The position numbers were made by a program, and so were the translations under genes. From positions 1,534,220 to 1,598,219 of the forward strand of contig NZ_CP007128.1 of assembly GCF_000522985.1 (NCBI RefSeq): a stretch of DNA of 64,000 nt, written 5' to 3'. Position 1 is the stretch's first letter; each line of letters starts with the position of its first letter. This stretch comes from Gemmatirosa kalamazoonensis (lineage in GTDB: Bacteria > Gemmatimonadota > Gemmatimonadetes > Gemmatimonadales > Gemmatimonadaceae). Positions 835 to 61,704 of this stretch are shown here, piece by piece. Under the pieces are notes generated by a model. That model was not told the DNA's origin. It did no database searches and saw only the letters and a program-made list of their open reading frames with translations.

Positions 835-1139
835 ATGCGCCTGCTCGACGAAGTCACTGCCACCATCATCGGCACGTCTCTCCGGATCCACCGCGACGTC
901 GGGCCGGGCCTCCTCGAGTCGGTGTACGAGGCGATCCTCGGGCGGGCTCTCACGCGACACGGGAGCGCCTGACGACCGTGCACGGCAAGCAGGTGCTCAC
1001 CTACCTGCGGCTCATGCACCTGCCGGTCGGCCTCCTGCTCAACTTCGGCGCGGGCACCATGAAGGAAGGGCTGCGTCGGATCGTCAACGACCTGCCGCCG
1101 GAGGAATCGCCCGCCCTCCGGGTCAATCGCGGCGGCTGA
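835..1139 (+). pseudogene. GxxExxY protein gene remnant, internal deletion and frameshift
   Basis: GxxExxY proteins are about 125-130 residues long and are classed with PD-(D/E)XK nuclease-like folds; their role is not established. Here the first 45 codons from ATG 835 give the family's N-terminus, including the name motif GLLESVY, and stop at 970-972. In another frame the sequence continues with QVLTYLRL, VGLLLNFG and KEGLRRIVND, which match the family's C-terminus, ending at the stop 1137-1139. Roughly 45-50 central residues, where the catalytic Asp/Glu/Lys residues would be, are absent. The remnant is bracketed by hairpins A1 and A2. Identification rests on motif recall, not on a search. 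Confidence 0.75.
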
Positions 1140-4317: not shown

Positions 4318-4449
4318 TGAACCGCAGAGGACGCACAGCGCCGCAGAGGACTGCCTCTTCTTTTTGAACCACAGAGGACACAGAGGACACGGAGGAGAAC
4401 CCTTCAAGAGAAGTTGGTTTTCTCTGTGTCCTCCGTGTCCTCTGTGATA
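4318..4449. repeat. Nested hairpin repeat family A, copy A3 (CGCAGAGG arm plus CACAGAGG hairpin)
   Basis: An outer left arm of the CCGCAGAGGACGC type (about 4319-4351) is followed by a complete inner hairpin of the CCACAGAGGACACAGAGG type (arms about 4368-4400 and 4416-4448). The outer right arm is missing. The two arm sequences are different variants of the same 9-bp unit, so one variant appears to have been inserted into the other. Confidence 0.85.
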
Positions 4450-4543
4450 AGAAAGCAGTTGACGAGGCAAGCACGGCAGGGATGCCCGTCCCCGGTACCA
4501 CCCCCATATTGCCGCATCCCACCCGTCACCCTCCGGAGCCTCG

Positions 4544-13954: not shown

Positions 13955-14036
13955 CTCACGCGGAGCCGCGGAGATCGCGGAGAAAACCAACACGAGTGTG
14001 TTGCAGTTCTCCGCGTTCTCCGCGCCTCCGTGTGAG
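13955..14036. repeat. Hairpin repeat family A, copy A4 (CGCGGAG type)
   Basis: Inverted repeat, left arm CTCACGCGGAGCCGCGGAGA and right arm TTCTCCGCG..CTCCGTGTGAG, with loop ACCAACACGAGTGTGTTG that itself folds. It lies just upstream of the membrane acyltransferase gene. Confidence 0.88.
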
Positions 14037-16928: not shown

Positions 16929-16959
16929 GCACGCCGGCCGCAGAGAACACCGATGGGGC

Positions 16960-17073
16960 GAGGTGACAGGCGAGTACCCTGGGGATCCAAGTGCGATTGA
17001 AAAGATCTCGAGATCCTCTACATCGCCCTTGGATCCCCAGAGTACTCGCCTGTCACCTCGAACCTGTCGAAGA
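16960..17073. repeat. Hairpin repeat family B, copy B2
   Basis: Near-perfect inverted repeat. The left arm AGGTGACAGGCGAGTACCC runs into TGGGGATCC, and the right arm (17031-17060) reads GGATCCCCAGAGTACTCGCC then TGTCACCTCG. The tail AACCTGTCGAAG resembles the tail of B1. It sits between convergent genes and could also act as a terminator. Confidence 0.88.
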
Positions 17074-17091
17074 GAACGTCAACTTCAATTC

Positions 17092-17140
17092 AAAGAGGCA
17101 GTCCTCTGCGGCCCTCTGCGTCCTCTGCGGTTCAATTCGA
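17092..17140. repeat. Family A half-element, copy A5 (right arm only)
   Basis: A single arm of the CGCAGAGG class: AGGCAGTCCTCTGCGGCCCT then CTGCGTCCTCTGCGGTTCAATTC. No matching left arm is nearby. The TTCAATTC end also appears (inverted) in copy A8, so this may be what is left after loss of half an element, next to B2. Confidence 0.75.
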
Positions 17141-17159: not shown

Positions 17160-19853
17160 CTACTCCGTACGCAGCGCGGCGTTGGGATCGGCGCGCGAGG
17201 CGCGGAGCGCCGGCGACGCGCTCGCCGCGACGGCGACGAGCAGCAGCGCCGCGCCGACCGCCAGGTATACCGACGGATCCGTCGCCGACTGCTCGAACAG
17301 CAGCGGCTGCAGCCGGCGCGCGGCGAGCAGCGCCGCGCCGGCGCCCAACGCGATGCCGGCGAGCGCGAAGTACACGCCGCGCGCCACGACGAGCCGCACC
17401 ACGTCGCGCGCGCGGGCGCCGAGCGCGACCCGCACGCTCAGCTCGTGGGCGCGCTGCGCGACGTCGTAGGCGATCACACTGTAGAGGCCCACCGCCGCGA
17501 TCACGAGCGCGAGCGCGCCGAACGCCACGAACATCGTCGCGCCGAGCCGCCACGATTGCTTGCGCTCGCCCACGGCGTCCGAGAACGGCGTGACCGTCAC
17601 GTACGACGCGCCCGGCATCTCGCGCTGCAGCCGCGCCCGCAGCGTCTCGCGCATCCGCGCCGCGTCCGCACGCACGCGCACGAACAGCCCCCCGGTCTGC
17701 GGCGCGAACTGCGCCGCCGGCACGTAGTAGTAGTGGAAGTCCGGCTCGGCCCCGAGCTCGTCGGCCTTGATGTTCTCCGCCACGCCGACCACCTGCGTGC
17801 ACGGTGCCGTGTCCGCACGCAGCCGCACGCAGCGGCCTAACGGATCCTTCCCCGGCCACAGCACGCGCGCCATCGACTCGCTCACCACCATCACGCGCGG
17901 CGCGCCGTCCCGGTCGCCGGGCTCGATCGCGCGGCCGCGGATCACGCGCGTGCCCACCGTCGCGAAGTGCTCCGGCCCCACCGCGTTGTAGTAGAACTGC
18001 CCGAGCCGCGCCACCGAGTCGATCCCCTCGACGTACAGCGACTGGTTGCGGTAGTCCCAGAACGGCACCGAGATCCGCAGGCTCGCCGACTGCACGCCGG
18101 GCGTCGCCTTCGCCGCGTCGAGCAGCCGGCCGCGCAGCGCCACCATGCGCGCGCTGTCGAGCTTGAGCCCGCGCATGCTGAGGTCCACCAGCAGCACCGG
18201 GTCCACGTCGTAGCCGAGTCGCACCTGCTGCACGTGGCGAAGGCTGCGCACGAACAGCCCCGCGCCGACGAGCAACGACACGCACAGCGCGCCCTGCACC
18301 ACCAGCAGCACCGATCGCAGGCGCGACTCGCGCCGCGCGATCCCGCCGCGCGCGCCCGCGCGGATATCCGACGTGAGCCGCACGCGCCCGGCCTGCACCA
18401 TCGGCGCGAGCCCCATGAGCGCGCCGGTGGCGAGCGCTGCCCCCGCGGCGAACCACACCGTGCGCGGATCGTGCATCCCCGCCGGCGCCTCGCTCTTCTC
18501 GAGGAGCAGGGCGCGCAGCACCGCCCCGCCCCAGTGCGCCACCGCGAGCCCCACCGCGCCGCCCAGCACCGCGAGCAGCATCGACTCCGTCCACAGCTGC
18601 GCGAGCAGGCGGCGGCGCGTGACGCCGAGCGCGAGCCGCAGCGCGATCTCGCGGCGGCGGCGCAGCGCGCGGGCCAGCAGCAGGTTCGCGACGTTCGCGC
18701 ACGCGATGAGCAGCACGACGCCCGACACCCCCGCCACCCACGTCGCCACCTTCGACTCGGGCGACGCGTTGGGCCCGCGCGAGAACAGGATCGATCCCAC
18801 CTCGCCGCGCGGGCGCAGCTCGCTCAGCGGCGGTGACCCCGGCTGTTGCTCGCGGGCCGCCTCGAAGCTGCGTCGCAGCGCGCTGGTGAGGTCCGCGTTC
18901 GCCGCGGCCGTCGACACGCCTTGCTTGCGCCGCGCCAGCGTCGACATCCACCCCCAGCCGTAGGAAGTCCACCAGCTCGCCGTCAGCCGCGGCCCCTCGG
19001 AGGCGGCGTACGCGGCGAGCGGCACGAACGCGGCCGGCGGCTGGTCGGGCCACAGTCCCACGAAGCCACGCGGCGCGACGCCGATCACCGTGTAGGTCGT
19101 CGATCCGATCGGCAGCGTGGTGCCCAACACGTCGCGGCGGCCGCCGTAGCGTGTCTGCCAGAACGCGTAGCTCAGCACGACCACCGGCGCGCCGGAAGGC
19201 GGGCGGTCCTCGGCCTCCGTGTAGTAGCGCCCCAACGTCGGCGCCGCATCGAAGAAGCCGAAGAAGCTCGGACTCACCACACCCACCTGCATTTGGCGCG
19301 TCGCGTCGCCGGTGCCGATCGGCATCTCGCGCAGCGCGTAGCCGGCCACGCTGGCGAACGAGTGCGTGTACGTCGCGACGTCGCGGTAGCGCGCGTACTG
19401 CGAGCCGCCGCCTGGTGTCTCCTCGCCGCGCCGTGTGACGTAGACGTAGACGCGGTGCGCGGTCGCCGGGTCGCGCAGCAGTGGGGGCGGCCGGAAGAGC
19501 AGCCGGTCGACCACGCCGAACATGGCGACGTTCGCGCCGAGGCCGAGGCCGAGCGTGACGACCACGGCGAGCGTGAAGCCGGGCGAGCGCGCGAGCCCGC
19601 GCAGCGCGTAGCGGACATCGTGCAGCACGCGGTCGAGCGCGGGAAGCGACCACCGCTCGCGCGCCGCGGCCTTCGCGCGCAGCGTGCTGCCCAACGCTCG
19701 GCGCGCGGCCCACGCCGCCTCGTCCGCGCTCGCCCCCGCGGCGCGCGCATCGCGCTCGAGCTGCGCGCGGTGAAACGCCAGCTCCTCGTCGAGCTCCGCG
19801 TCCAGCGCGTCGCGCCGCAGCCAGTCGCGGCCCCGCGTCAGCCATTCGCGCAT
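17160..19853 (-). CDS. ADOP-family ABC transporter permease with N-terminal prefix domain
   Basis: An 897-residue permease with two MacB/FtsX units. Residues 1-75 are the soluble helical prefix of this class (LDAELDEELAFHRAQLERDA). Then come GFTLAVVVTLGLGLGANVAM and the periplasmic domain, a first FtsX block near 350-460, the second MacB domain and the last helices, ending RADPNAALRTE. The start ATG 19853 lies 17 bases after the PadR gene, so it follows PadR in one transcript. Sequence blocks such as DPLGRC and LSMRG/LDSAR are shared with the ADOP at 1275-3749, so the two are paralogs. It probably exports a toxic or amphipathic compound under PadR control. Confidence 0.92.
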   Translation of the reverse strand: MREWLTRGRDWLRRDALDAELDEELAFHRAQLERDARAAGASADEAAWAARRALGSTLRAKAAARERWSLPALDRVLHDVRYALRGLARSPGFTLAVVVTLGLGLGANVAMFGVVDRLLFRPPPLLRDPATAHRVYVYVTRRGEETPGGGSQYARYRDVATYTHSFASVAGYALREMPIGTGDATRQMQVGVVSPSFFGFFDAAPTLGRYYTEAEDRPPSGAPVVVLSYAFWQTRYGGRRDVLGTTLPIGSTTYTVIGVAPRGFVGLWPDQPPAAFVPLAAYAASEGPRLTASWWTSYGWGWMSTLARRKQGVSTAAANADLTSALRRSFEAAREQQPGSPPLSELRPRGEVGSILFSRGPNASPESKVATWVAGVSGVVLLIACANVANLLLARALRRRREIALRLALGVTRRRLLAQLWTESMLLAVLGGAVGLAVAHWGGAVLRALLLEKSEAPAGMHDPRTVWFAAGAALATGALMGLAPMVQAGRVRLTSDIRAGARGGIARRESRLRSVLLVVQGALCVSLLVGAGLFVRSLRHVQQVRLGYDVDPVLLVDLSMRGLKLDSARMVALRGRLLDAAKATPGVQSASLRISVPFWDYRNQSLYVEGIDSVARLGQFYYNAVGPEHFATVGTRVIRGRAIEPGDRDGAPRVMVVSESMARVLWPGKDPLGRCVRLRADTAPCTQVVGVAENIKADELGAEPDFHYYYVPAAQFAPQTGGLFVRVRADAARMRETLRARLQREMPGASYVTVTPFSDAVGERKQSWRLGATMFVAFGALALVIAAVGLYSVIAYDVAQRAHELSVRVALGARARDVVRLVVARGVYFALAGIALGAGAALLAARRLQPLLFEQSATDPSVYLAVGAALLLVAVAASASPALRASRADPNAALRTE

Positions 19854-20267: not shown

Positions 20268-20344
20268 GAACCGCAGAGGACGCAGAGGGCCGCAGAGGAC
20301 ATCATGCGCAGTCCTCTGCGGCCTTCTGCGTCCTCTGCGGTTCG
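20268..20344. repeat. Hairpin repeat family A, copy A6 (CGCAGAGG type)
   Basis: Inverted repeat with left arm GAACCGCAGAGGACGCAGAG and right arm CTTCTGCGTCCTCTGCGGTTC. Each arm is four 9-bp units of the GCAGAGGAC or GCAGAGGGC type. It lies between the PadR operator and the 3' end of the TldE gene. Confidence 0.92.
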
Positions 20345-33368: not shown

Positions 33369-34084
33369 CGATATGGGACGGGCTGTACGTGGCTCACGCG
33401 GAGGCGCGGAGAACGCGGAGAGCTGTTTCTTGTATCGAACCGCAGAGGACGCAGAGGACGCAGAGGACAACCAATTCTTGTTGGTTTCCTCTGCGTCCTC
33501 TGCGTCCTCTGCGGTCAACGCACACAGCCAAGGCAGTTCTCCGCGTTCTCCGCGTCTCCGCGTCCGACGCCGTCGTCGCGCTCGCGGCGCTACTCACCGC
33601 CTGCGACCGACCGTCGGGGCACGCCGCGCGCGCAACCCGCTCGGTCGCCGACAGTGTGCGTGGCGACAGCGCGGCGCTCGCGAGCCTGCCGCCGGCGTTG
33701 GCCGAGGCGTTCGCGGTGCGCGCGGTGCTGACGCGCGAGGCGCTGCGCGACACCGATGTCGCGTCGTGCGAGCCGCTGCTGCGGCGCGACACGAGCGCCG
33801 TGCGACGGCGGCTGCGCGCGCGGCTCGCCGACGGCTCGCGCACGGTGCTGTTCGTGCGTGCCGCGCGCGACACGATCCGGCGCGTGGAGCTGGTGCGGCG
33901 CGCGCGCGGCGGCGGGCAGCGCGGGTTCATCTGGGATGCGTCGACCGACGCGGCCGAGTCGGTAGAGTGGCGCGTCGGTGTCACTCGGCCGGAGGTGACG
34001 ACGCTGCCGCGCGGCGGACCGGTGCCGCGGGCGCTGCGGGCGCTCGGGCGGCAGCTGCTCGCGCTGCCGTGTGACGGGCGCTGA
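33365..34084 (+). CDS. Lipoprotein gene with hairpin repeat A7 inside its N-terminus
   Basis: The body from about 33564 onward encodes VVALAALLTACDRPSG, a normal lipoprotein signal with lipobox LTAC, and then a 150-residue helical and beta domain that I do not recognise. No ATG, GTG or TTG in this frame lies close before the signal. The nearest are GTG 33389 and GTG 33365; the latter has GGAG eight bases upstream and overlaps the cutC stop by GTGA. Between them and the signal lies the 171-base repeat A7 (57 codons), which stays open in this frame. Either the repeat lengthened the n-region of the signal peptide in frame, or the gene lost its own start and is silent. Confidence 0.5.
   Translation: MTIWDGLYVAHAEARRTRRAVSCIEPQRTQRTQRTTNSCWFPLRPLRPLRSTHTAKAVLRVLRVSASDAVVALAALLTACDRPSGHAARATRSVADSVRGDSAALASLPPALAEAFAVRAVLTREALRDTDVASCEPLLRRDTSAVRRRLRARLADGSRTVLFVRAARDTIRRVELVRRARGGGQRGFIWDASTDAAESVEWRVGVTRPEVTTLPRGGPVPRALRALGRQLLALPCDGR
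33393..33563. repeat. Nested hairpin repeat family A, copy A7
   Basis: Outer arms are CGCGGAG type (CTCACGCGGAGGCGCGGAGA ... TTCTCCGCGTCTCCGCG). Within them is a complete inner hairpin of CGCAGAGG type, with three 9-bp GCAGAGGAC units in each arm and loop ACCAATTCTTGTTGGT. The total length is 171 bases, a multiple of three, and lies in the open frame of the lipoprotein gene. Confidence 0.9.
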
Positions 34085-34108: not shown

Positions 34109-34188
34109 CTCGCATGGTACCGGAGCGAGATTCCGGCGGTGCAATACTGGGCGAAGGGGGGGGAGCCCCCCCGGGACCTAGGTACCGC
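34109..34188 (-). repeat. Repeat family C, copy C1
   Basis: Reading the minus strand: GGTACCTAGGTCCCGGGGGG, then GCTCCCCCCCC, TTCGCCCAGTATTG and a tail ending GGTACCATGCGAGC. It holds two palindromes (ACCTAGGT and the G6-C6 hairpin). It lies just before the amidohydrolase start at 34205 but points away from that gene. Confidence 0.88.
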
Positions 34189-34204
34189 GAACCGACCCCG
34201 CGAG

Positions 34205-36911: not shown

Positions 36912-36918
36912 GCGCGCG

Positions 36919-37020
36919 CGGTACCTAGTATCCAGGGGGGCTCCCCCCCCTTCGCCCAAGGTTCCACTCGGCGGCGCGCACCGCGGTATCAGAACGACGC
37001 GTGCCGTCGCATTCCGACGC
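36919..37020 (+). repeat. Repeat family C, copy C2
   Basis: GGTACCTAGTATCCAGGGGG followed by GCTCCCCCCCC, TTCGCCCAAGGT, a GCGGCGCGCACCGC hairpin and the tail GTATCAGAACGACGCGTGCC..ATTCCGACGC. It points towards the histidine phosphatase gene, whose ATG is 15 bases past the tail. Confidence 0.9.
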
Positions 37021-44551: not shown

Positions 44552-44689
44552 CTCACGACTCCACGTACGAGTCTGTATAGGACTGAAGAAGGACTGAAGA
44601 GGGACTGAAGAAGGAAACTCCAACAAGAAGTGTTGGTCCTTCTTCAGTCCTGCTTCAGTCCCACGTGCACTCGTACGTGGAGTCGTGAG
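44552..44689. repeat. Hairpin of 12-bp GGACTGAAGAAG repeats, family D, copy D1
   Basis: Left arm: CTCCACGTACGAGTCTGTAT, then three 12-bp units GGACTGAAGAAG with small changes. The loop AACTCCAACAAGAAGTGTTGG itself folds. Right arm: CCTTCTTCAGTCCTGCTTCAGTCCC and ACTCGTACGTGGAGTCGTGAG. It lies between divergent genes. Confidence 0.92.
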
Positions 44690-48640: not shown

Positions 48641-48739
48641 GCGTCGGAATGTGATGGCACGCGTCCGAATGGTACTGCGGCGCGGTCGCGGCGTAGCACC
48701 TTGGGCGCAGGGGGGGGACCCCCCTGGGACCTAGGTCCC
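48641..48739 (-). repeat. Repeat family C, copy C4
   Basis: Reading the minus strand: GGGACCTAGGTCCCAGGGGG, GTCCCCCCCCC, TGCGCCCAAGGTGCTACG, a GCGACCGCGC stem, GTACCATTCGGACGCGTGCC and ATTCCGACGC. It points towards the M1 peptidase gene. The tail matches that of C2. Confidence 0.9.
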
Positions 48740-48829
48740 GCGCCCGGACGAGTCCTTTCAAAACGCTTACCACCTCCGTCGCTCCGCGCCCTCGCCGAGG
48801 GTGGGACGCGGTGCAGGATTCTCGTCGGC

Positions 48830-49052
48830 CTCACGCGGAGCCGTGGGCGCGAGGCCTCTTGAAGTGAACCACAGAGGGCCGCAGAGGGCCGCGGAGGACT
48901 GCCCTTCTGAATTGAACCACAGAGGACACGGAGGACACGGAGGACACCAACTTCTTGAAGACGTTCTCCTCTGTGTCCTCTGTGTCCTCTGTGGTAAGAC
49001 GCGGTTGAAGTTGCCGTCCTCTGCGGCCCTCTGCGGCCCTCTGCGGTTCACC
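48830..49052. repeat. Nested hairpin repeat family A, copy A8 (three arm types)
   Basis: Remnant outer arm CTCACGCGGAGCCGTGGGCG; middle arms CCGCAGAGGGCCGC type (about 48864-48899 and 49012-49048); inner hairpin CCACAGAGGACACGGAGG type (about 48914-48992) with loop CCAACTTCTTGAAGACG. Three variants of the 9-bp unit are thus stacked one inside another. Confidence 0.9.
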
Positions 49053-50565: not shown

Positions 50566-52224
50566 ATGCCGAGAGCCGCCACGCTCAGCCTCCTCTGCTG
50601 CCTCCCCGGCGCGCTGCATGGCCAGCGCGTGACGAAGGCGGCGCCGACCGACACCGGTCCGACGACGGCCGCGATCACGCCGGCGGATCTGCGCCGCCGG
50701 CTGTACGTCTTCGCCGCCGACTCCATGATGGGGCGCGCCGCGGGCACGGCGGACAACCTCCGCGCCACGGCGTACATCGAGCGCGAGCTGCGCCGCCTCG
50801 GCCTCGTGCCCGGCGGCGACGGCGGCTCGTTCTTCCAGCAGGTGCCGCTCGTGCGCCGTGGCGTCGGGCAGGACGCCGCGCTGACGATCGACGGCGTCGA
50901 CGGCGCGCGATTCGTCGCCGGACGCGACTTTCTCGTGCGCGACCCCGGCGCCGCCCAGCGGTCGGTCGACGGCGCGGCGACGGTGTACGGCGGCACGTGG
51001 GGCGACTCGTCGACGTACGTCGCGCCCGCCGCCGCGAACGGAAAGCTCGTCGTCGTGGACGTGCGGCGCGGGTGGGAGGCCGACCGCGCGCATCTCCTGA
51101 AGCGCTATCGAGGCGCGGCCGGGATCGCCGTCGCGTCGTACGACTCCATGCCGCCCGACGTGCGCGGCGCGCTGTCCGACACGCCGGTGTCGCTCGCCGA
51201 CGGCGAGGCGCCGGTCGTCACCACGGGCGCGACGCCGGCGCCCGTGTTCCTGTACGTGACGCGGGCGCTCCGTGCCGCGCTGTTAGGCGCGCCGGGGCGC
51301 ACGGTGCGCGGCGACGTCGCGTTCGGCGACCAGCCGGCGCCGGCGCGGAACGTCGTCGCGATCCTGCCGGGGAGCGACCCCGCGATGCGCGGTCAGTACG
51401 TCGCGCTCGGGGCGCACAACGATCACGTCGGCTACACGCGCAACCCGGTGGACCACGACTCGATGCGCGCCGTGCTCACCGTCGCGCGGCCGCTCGGCGC
51501 CGACAGCCCCGAGCGGCCGCTCACCGCGGCGCAGCAGCGGCGCGTGCGCGCGCTCACCGACAGCCTGCACCGCGCCCACGGCGGCGCGCGCCCCGACTCG
51601 ATCTACAACGGCGCCGACGACGACGGCTCCGGCTCGATGGCGCTGCTCGAGATCGCGGAGCAGCTCGCGTCGCTGCCGACGGCGCCGAAGCGGTCGATCG
51701 TGTTCGTGTGGCACACCGGCGAGGAGCTGGGCCTGTATGGCTCGCAGTGGTTCACCGACCATCCGACGGTGCCGCGCGACTCGATCGTCGCGCAGCTCAA
51801 CATGGACATGATCGGGCGCGGCAGCGCGTCCGACGTCACGGGCGGCGGGCCGGCGTACCTGCAGCTCATCGGCTCGCGCCGGCTCTCCACGGAGCTCGGC
51901 GACCTGATCGAGCGCGTCAATCGCGAGACGGACGCCGGCTTCCGGTTCGACTACGCGTACGACGCGAACGGACATCCGGAGCAGTACTACTGCCGCAGCG
52001 ACCACTACGAGTACGCGCGCTACGGCATCCCGATCACGTTCTTCTCCACCGGCGGCCACCGCGACTACCACGAGGTGACCGACGAGCCGCAATACATCGA
52101 CTACGACCATTACGCGCGCGTGACGACGCTCGTGCGCGACGTCGCGGTGCGCATCGCGAACCTCGACCACCGGCTCGTCGTCGACCGGGCGAAGCCGGAT
52201 CCGCACGGGGAGTGCAGGCAGTGA
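50566..52224 (+). CDS. Secreted M28-family peptidase
   Basis: A 552-residue zinc peptidase with a signal peptide (MPRAATLSLLCCLPGALHGQ). A PA-like insert spans about 130-270 and the M28 ligands follow: ALGAHNDHVG (His), NGADDDGSGS (Asp), WHTGEELGLYGS (Glu-Glu), LNMDMIGRG (Asp) and TGGHRDYHEVTDE (His). An insert of about 50 residues between the first two ligands (DHDSMRAV..RAHGG) is longer than in typical aminopeptidases. It likely removes N-terminal residues from peptides. It is followed by the large repeat F. Confidence 0.92.
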   Translation: MPRAATLSLLCCLPGALHGQRVTKAAPTDTGPTTAAITPADLRRRLYVFAADSMMGRAAGTADNLRATAYIERELRRLGLVPGGDGGSFFQQVPLVRRGVGQDAALTIDGVDGARFVAGRDFLVRDPGAAQRSVDGAATVYGGTWGDSSTYVAPAAANGKLVVVDVRRGWEADRAHLLKRYRGAAGIAVASYDSMPPDVRGALSDTPVSLADGEAPVVTTGATPAPVFLYVTRALRAALLGAPGRTVRGDVAFGDQPAPARNVVAILPGSDPAMRGQYVALGAHNDHVGYTRNPVDHDSMRAVLTVARPLGADSPERPLTAAQQRRVRALTDSLHRAHGGARPDSIYNGADDDGSGSMALLEIAEQLASLPTAPKRSIVFVWHTGEELGLYGSQWFTDHPTVPRDSIVAQLNMDMIGRGSASDVTGGGPAYLQLIGSRRLSTELGDLIERVNRETDAGFRFDYAYDANGHPEQYYCRSDHYEYARYGIPITFFSTGGHRDYHEVTDEPQYIDYDHYARVTTLVRDVAVRIANLDHRLVVDRAKPDPHGECRQ

Positions 52225-52227
52225 CGA

Positions 52228-52594
52228 TTGACTGCGGGACGCTGCACGGCGGGACGCTGCACGGCGGGACGACTAACGGCGGGACGCCGCACGGCGGGAC
52301 GCTGAACGGCGGGATGGATACGGCGGGACGATCGACCGCGGGACGGTCGACGGCGGGCGCGGTACCTAGGTCCCAGGGGGGCTCCCCCCCCTTCGCCCAA
52401 GGTGCTACGCGCCGCTCGAGCGGCCGTACCAATCCGACGCCGGCTGGATCCCTCCGAACGCATCCCGATCCGCCCCGTGTCCATCCCGCCGTCAGTCGTC
52501 CCGCGGTCAGTCGTCCCGCGGTCAGTCGTCCCGCCGTCAGGCGTCCCGCCGTTAGTCGTCCCGCCGTGCAGCGTCCCGCCGTTAGTCATCAGTT
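52228..52594. repeat. Large hairpin of 15-bp repeats, family F, enclosing C5
   Basis: Both arms consist of 15-bp units: CGGCGGGACG plus five variable bases (CTGCA, ACTAA, CCGCA, CTGAA, CCTGA, ACTGA). The left arm (52228-52357) has about eight units; the right arm (52483-52594) is the inverted form with about seven. Both arms hold adjacent CTGCA and ACTAA units. The loop carries the family C copy. As 15 bp is five codons, both strands read as pentapeptide-like repeats, but no start or gene context supports translation. Confidence 0.88.
52361..52440 (+). repeat. Repeat family C, copy C5
   Basis: GGTACCTAGGTCCCAGGGGG, GCTCCCCCCCC, TTCGCCCAAGGTGCTACGCG, GCCGCTCGAGCGGC stem and CGTACCAATCCGACGC. 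It lies in the loop of repeat F and points towards the response regulator gene. Confidence 0.92.
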
Positions 52595-61536: not shown

Positions 61537-61549
61537 GGTGCGCTTCTCA

Positions 61550-61690
61550 TGGCTCCACGTACGTGTCGTTGTAGGACTAAAGAAGGACTGAAGGAGGACT
61601 GAAGAAGGACCGACAACGCTTTCTGTGTTTGGTCCTTCTTCAGTCTCTCTTCAGTCCTTCTTCAGTCCTCGAGAAACTCGTACGTGGAGC
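61550..61690. repeat. Hairpin of 12-bp GGACTGAAGAAG repeats, family D, copy D2
   Basis: Left arm: GGCTCCACGTACGTGTCGTT then GGACTAAAGAAG, GGACTGAAGGAG and GGACTGAAGAAG. Loop: CCGACAACGC..GTGTTTGG. Right arm: CCTTCTTCAGTCTCTCTTCAGTCC..TTCAGTCC, then ACTCGTACGTGGAGCC. It separates convergent genes. The terminal CTCCACGTACGAG-like word is shared with D1. Confidence 0.92.
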
Positions 61691-61704
61691 CCTGCACGGG
61701 CGGG

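Follow-up and report, generated by a model that had tools for sequence, protein, structure and literature searches.

Palindromes that lie in the loops of other palindromes raise the question of how they came to be nested and what carried them there. The case considered here stands at positions 33393-33563 of a 64,000-nucleotide stretch of the Gemmatirosa kalamazoonensis genome (hereafter the window; C2:1534220-1598219 in a genome of 7.48 Mb and 4 contigs), where direct reading of the sequence bears out an outer hairpin with arms of three CGCGGAG heptamers and, in its loop, a full hairpin with arms of three CGCAGAG heptamers. We name the families of tandem-heptamer palindromes G (CGCGGAG), B (CGCAGAG) and C (CACRGAG); H denotes the CTGGGGATNNAAAGGATC hairpin, F is built on GGACTGAAG and P on GACAGGAT.

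Structure of the nest and related hairpins

The left arm of the outer G palindrome (33393-33420, plus strand) reads CTCA-CGCGGAGgCGCGGAGaaCGCGGAG, with CGCGGAGgCGCGGAGaaCGCGGAG at 33397-33420 holding three CGCGGAG units separated by spacers of 1 and 2 nt, and its right arm (CTCCGCGttCTCCGCGtCTCCGCG, 33539-33562) is on the minus strand. Between them, a 20-nt left linker of beta type (33421-33440), ending in the B terminus TCGAAC, leads to the left arm of the inner B palindrome (33441-33465, plus strand; CGCAGAGgaCGCAGAGgaCGCAGAG, three CGCAGAG units with spacers GA and GA), a 23-nt innermost loop (GACAACCAATTCTTGTTGGTTTC, 33466-33488), the complement of the CGCAGAGgaCGCAGAGgaCGCAGAG arm as right B arm (33489-33513, minus strand) and a 25-nt alpha-type right linker (33514-33538; reverse complement AACTGCCTTGGCTGTGTGCGTTGAC). 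By inspection, G palindromes terminate in CTCA...TGAG, and B and C palindromes in TTGAAC...GTTCAA. Folded as single-stranded DNA, the nest reaches -86.9 kcal/mol, compared to -32.8 ± 3.05 kcal/mol for shuffled sequences (z = -17.7).

Two further nests in the window carry a C hairpin within B, at about 4323-4450 and about 48870-49045. The sequence-only reading had placed CACRGAG hairpins within CGCAGAG arms at both, which stands with the correction that the innermost layer mixes CACAGAG and CACGGAG units; at the first nest the inner C hairpin is present, but the outer layer is not two-armed as had been described, its right B arm having been lost. The trace of an outer CGCGGAG arm reported for the second is indeed there, as a remnant CTCACGCGGAG arm lying outside on the left, from about 48840. 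Simple hairpins without an insert also occur (G at 13959-14033; B at 20272-20339, with loop GACATCATGCGCAGTC), and at 16959-17134 an H-type hairpin (CTGGGGATCC) lies beside half a B element, probably as a decayed nest. A search of the window against Rfam matched no RNA family.

Nesting order across the genome

The whole genome contains 158 triplet arms of G and 315 of B or C, with 0-1 hits for reversed-pattern controls. We tallied adjacent same-direction arms in contiguous stretches covering 2.06 Mb and found the nestings G(B) 28, B(C) 58, B(H) 3 and G(H) 1 times, while the reverse arrangements numbered C(B) 0 and B(G) 1, the latter an isolated arm. The order CGCGGAG, then CGCAGAG, then the inner family, previously suggested from the window, therefore holds genome-wide, and the reverse order is not equally frequent. 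Among bracket-matched pairs, arms of another family lay in the loops of 7 of 39 G, 28 of 72 B and 0 of 33 C palindromes; further loops of 61-93 nt contain, by reading, H-like inserts that would raise the counts for G and B. The number of B hairpins expected in G loops is 0.03 under uniform placement, or 0.3 if placement is intergenic only (0.31, assuming an intergenic fraction of 10%). The hairpin-within-hairpin arrangement is real, and the nest at 33393-33563 is one among dozens in this genome.

A further arrangement, palindromes of CGCAGAG/CGCGGAG heptamers without spacers, occurs at C2:1645999, 1726267 and 1749451. Separately, the C arm of one B(C) nest is interrupted at C2:619880-621206 by a 1.35-kb insertion; we considered this gene-bearing stretch (C2:619.9-621.2 kb) as a candidate autonomous form and rejected it, since on reading it looks like a secondary insertion of an IS3-type element.

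Palindromes bracket GxxExxY genes in this genome

The sequence-only reading described the hairpins but missed their link to a gene. A GxxExxY (PF13366) gene remnant at 835-1138 of the window, on the plus strand, stands between complete G hairpins directly upstream (742-811) and directly downstream (1150-1218). Profile positions 2-39 match window positions 850-963 and profile positions 79-117 match 963-1082; the intervening part, which would contain the D...ExK catalytic region, is absent. Nine PF13366 matches in the genome correspond to seven genes. Besides the remnant, these comprise a frameshifted gene with B hairpins on both sides (C3:993.5-994.3 kb), intact genes with P (C2:905456), F (C3:1092491) or H (C2:5013050) palindromes on both sides, a gene with a CGCGGAT palindrome on one side (C3:437285) and one with no evident palindrome (C2:2514178). 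Family C has no visible partner here, as none of the genome's GxxExxY genes was found to carry CACRGAG arms. The F family numbers 37 hairpins in the 2.06 Mb, and F palindromes, built of tandem GGACTGAAG units, occur in the window at 44552-44689 and 61548-61694.

GxxExxY proteins have about 120-150 residues and no known transposase domain. All eight tested against TIGR04256 match it at 103-155 bits (cut-off 35), and the matches to Pfam PF13366 (PDDEXK_3) reach 132-147 bits (cut-off 22). The E of GxxExxY, a D, an ExK and a Q are conserved in 63 aligned proteins. The predicted fold (core pLDDT about 85-97) matches Cas4 SSO0001 (Z 7.3), BglII (6.9), Hjc (6.0) and VRR-Nuc (5.5), and also I-Bth0305I; since Z values of this size are moderate and are also reached by some unrelated chains, the matches support the PD-(D/E)XK superfamily rather than any particular function. 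On sequence and model together, GxxExxY is a predicted nuclease. A sequence search against solved structures gave no convincing relative, Foldseek by itself was weak (best E 0.05), and the marginal Cas4 similarity in PADLOC (E 0.001-0.05) is read at the level of fold only. The TIGR04256 family model assigns no function, and open-access papers mention the family in passing only.

Linkers, nesting events and the probable age order of layers

G/B linkers fall into a 25-nt alpha class (AACTGCCTTTGCTGTGTGAATGAAC), a 20-21-nt beta class (AACGGCCTCTTCGTATTGAAC) and a short class of 9-13 nt. B/C linkers begin with GACTGCC... on one side of nearly all copies and carry AACGGCAACTGC..., CCTTTCATTTGAAC, AACACCATCTCTC... 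or AACATCGAC... on the other. B loops hold either C or H, and the sequences that flank the two there are related; H is found in one G loop as well. The several junction types and these alternative occupants argue for more than one nesting event, and the homologous linkers common to many copies show that composites also multiplied as units, so that independent events may be few. The same observations bear on two origins suggested for the nests from sequence inspection. Targeted insertion into loops gains partial support from the variety of junctions, from the two occupants of B loops and from H in a G loop, and loses from the multiplication of composites as units. The evidence does not favour a single element extended step by step: the layers are separate families, in that a GxxExxY gene of its own is bracketed by each of G, B and H, and G and B are also found alone.

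Mismatches are rarer in inner C arms (0.22) than in the surrounding B arms (0.98; p = 5e-4), as would be expected of a younger inner layer; the counts for C are lowered slightly by three positions of its pattern that accept two letters each. No difference in decay was seen between G and B arms (p = 0.5). Given that the catalytic region is missing from the G partner, the B partner is frameshifted, the H partner is intact and C arms have fewer mismatches, the order G, B, then C or H most likely mirrors the order in which the families were active. Among 39 relatives from the same family or order, no match to a G(B) nest was found. In Sphingomonas (L328, L329 and L330, relatives of L098), a short intergenic site is occupied by differing heptamer palindromes in three genomes and is free of them in a fourth, which suggests a recurrent landing site; a nested site there yielded no clean intermediate between outer-only and nested forms, the three genomes having other palindromes at the same place.

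Heptamer arms and GxxExxY genes across phyla

Serial arms were sought in 84,980 species genomes, and the scan yielded 116 loci spread over many phyla. GxxExxY-type open reading frames (...LGPGLLES.YE...) adjoin several of the arm loci and are present in 10 of the 116; where arm pairs face inward around a loop of 250-1600 nt, 9 of 14 loops in this set contain GxxExxY, and the open reading frames in the remaining gene-sized loops had no Pfam match. PF13366 is present in 45 of 50 arm-selected genomes, compared to 37 of 121 in a phylum sample and 3 of 14 control genomes. Arms and gene co-occur in the 121 genomes (counts 16/3/21/81, Fisher p = 1.9e-7) and also within the family (14/0/12/16, p = 2e-4).

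We also assembled 29 GxxExxY loci from 29 Gemmatimonadota genomes that were not picked for repeats. Exact CRCRGAG arms lie within 400 bp at 12 of these 29 loci, on both sides at 9, and number 30 in 23.2 kb of near flank vs. 0 in 49.9 kb beyond 600 bp. A motif-free comparison, from which three loci at contig edges are left out, found that upstream and downstream flanks share a repeat scoring at least 18 at 14 of 26 loci, while distal flanks score at most 16; the repeats common to both flanks are mostly of heptamer types. CRCRGAG arms are absent at about half of GxxExxY loci, and other repeats are found at many of them, although not all. The arms point inward (40 vs. 12 upstream, 40 vs. 6 downstream; p = 1e-10).

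A tree of 63 GxxExxY proteins has a split with 100/96 support, on one side of which 34 of 46 proteins have CRCRGAG arms vs. 0 of 17 in the sister clade (p = 5e-8, for rows that are not fully independent, as relatives share history). The 17-protein clade includes the P, F, H and CGCGGAT partners, and the three CGCGGAG-flanked proteins form one clade. In several genomes the repeat type that flanks the gene is also the type dispersed through the genome. Heptamer palindromes bracket GxxExxY genes in many phyla.

Empty sites in Geothrix

About 30 Holophagaceae genomes lack, at the orthologous site, an arms-gene-arms unit of about 490 nt that Geothrix fermentans carries (L155). Both flanks lie close together in these genomes and are up to 99% identical; 19 of the empty sites were read base by base. 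The unit alone recurs elsewhere in a relative at 83% identity, and its arm sequences occur at dozens of dispersed places. Judged from these comparisons, the arms-plus-gene unit is an insertion. No target-site duplication is visible at the empty site, whose left junction is fuzzy because the intergenic DNA has diverged. Furthermore, 24 relatives lack a gene-less CACGGAG hairpin that the G. fermentans strain carries, and have another small hairpin or none in its place.

A proposed mobile element and its alternatives

We propose, with a probability of about 0.68, that the hairpins are gene-less forms of mobile elements linked to GxxExxY and that the nests are successive layers of families. Each family would have inverted arms, each made up of some three tandem heptamers, and a gene-bearing form in which a single GxxExxY gene lies between such arms or is enclosed by two complete hairpins. 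The families would have arisen or been activated in turn, G first, B next and C and H last, with younger families entering the loops of older ones to give the fixed order, after which some composites would have multiplied as units. In mechanism, the nuclease may recognise the heptamers and drive movement; it would probably nick or cut the palindrome, in the arm or loop of an extruded hairpin, and repair-mediated copying would follow. Hairpin loops would be its preferred targets, and the order of layers the order of ages. The fuller claim, that GxxExxY is the mobilising enzyme of a very widespread, undescribed class of element, made of inverted heptamer arrays and a lone PD-(D/E)XK nuclease, whose gene-less hairpins prefer older loops and so record the order of invasion, we hold to be evenly balanced between true and false.

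The fixed order could instead reflect one or two events, if one original G(B(C)) nest, or a small number of them, spread as units and the simple hairpins are reduced forms. Alpha and beta linkers are homologous in most G(B) nests and GACTGCC stands on one side of nearly every B(C) nest, as such a history would predict; however, the several unrelated linker classes on the other side, the 9-13-nt G/B junctions alongside those of 20-25 nt, the occurrence of both C and H in B loops and of H in a G loop, and the commonness of simple G and B hairpins with loops of their own, together with the separate partner genes of G, B and H, make it a doubtful account, if one to be taken seriously. It is unlikely, in turn, that GxxExxY is a passenger, either as cargo of another transposase that recognises the arms or as a host gene beside which palindromes land. 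The small enzyme without a known transposase domain would fit a passenger, REP-like elements elsewhere rely on other enzymes, and the movement of GxxExxY units is deduced here from sequence comparison. Against this, the protein clade predicts the repeat family, the flanking and dispersed repeat types coincide in several genomes, and the inserted Geothrix unit consists of arms plus gene. A RAYT as mobiliser was rejected, as the transposase profile searched for, Y1_Tnp (PF01797), has 0 matches in the whole genome.

It is very improbable that the palindromes are immobile regulatory or structural sites, such as regulator-binding sites or terminators. This reading draws on Geobacter metallireducens, in which inverted TCTCCGTS[Y] triplets were called predicted binding sites of a global regulator (PMC2700814), and is in keeping with the many copies here that directly follow stop codons and with heptamers that are conserved while spacers drift. 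The hairpins are nevertheless species-specific and missing at the two orthologous sites tested in close relatives, and the copies nest in each other and bracket a single gene family. A secondary regulatory or structural role after insertion may exist alongside mobility. The class 2 inverted triplets of G. metallireducens, as described there, resemble our repeats in their three tandem CACGGAG-type units, opposite-strand pairing and variable distance, and very likely belong to the same repeat superfamily; such units in inverted pairs are found in this genome and among the loci of the scan. The passages of that paper on the triplets draw no link to GxxExxY, nesting or mobility.

The GxxExxY-linked element that we favour has much in common with REPIN/RAYT systems: intergenic palindromes are dispersed, gene-less hairpins exist in many copies, a low-copy partner gene is bracketed by cognate palindromes that are also dispersed, and the partner's lineage matches the repeat family. 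In contrast to them, the partner is a PF13366 PD-(D/E)XK protein and not a Y1 (HUH) tyrosine transposase (TnpA-REP, PF01797), the arms are tandem heptamers and the families nest in fixed order. Like MITEs of classical insertion sequences, the short inverted-repeat units have no gene and apparently derive from a gene-bearing form with the same arms; unlike MITEs, they are not accompanied by a DDE transposase in the loci read. No target-site duplication is visible at the Geothrix empty site, where divergence blurs the left junction. PD-(D/E)XK homing endonucleases (I-Bth0305I being among the matches) resemble the element in having a small, mobile nuclease gene and in their fold class, but the heptamer arms and many gene-less copies set the element apart, as does the lack, as far as seen, of an intron or cognate allele. 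Searches of the open-access literature found no paper linking heptamer triplets to GxxExxY, nor the exact repeat sequences. Within that literature, the evidence points to an undescribed kind of mobile element.

GxxExxY genes and heptamer palindromes occur in many phyla, yet the open literature searched assigns no function to either. Should the palindromes be moved by the nuclease, the REPIN/RAYT lifestyle would have a second enzymatic solution, and a large orphan nuclease family would gain a function. The nests, if the proposal is true, would let one read off which mobile families entered a genome first and which came later.

Other repeats in the window

At 52213-52591, a 15-nt unit of CGGCGGGACGCTGCA type forms inverted arrays with arms of roughly 100 nt that stand 150-230 nt apart; these may represent one more family of this sort. 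A GGGGGGGGAGCCCCCC...CCTAGGT palindromic repeat occurs at 34139-34189, 36917-36967, 48710-48746 and 52354-52399, its copies being up to 98% complementary to one another. Finally, the segments 1411-2461 and 17296-18346, 15.9 kb apart, share 71-75% identity over about 1 kb and are probably paralogous genes.
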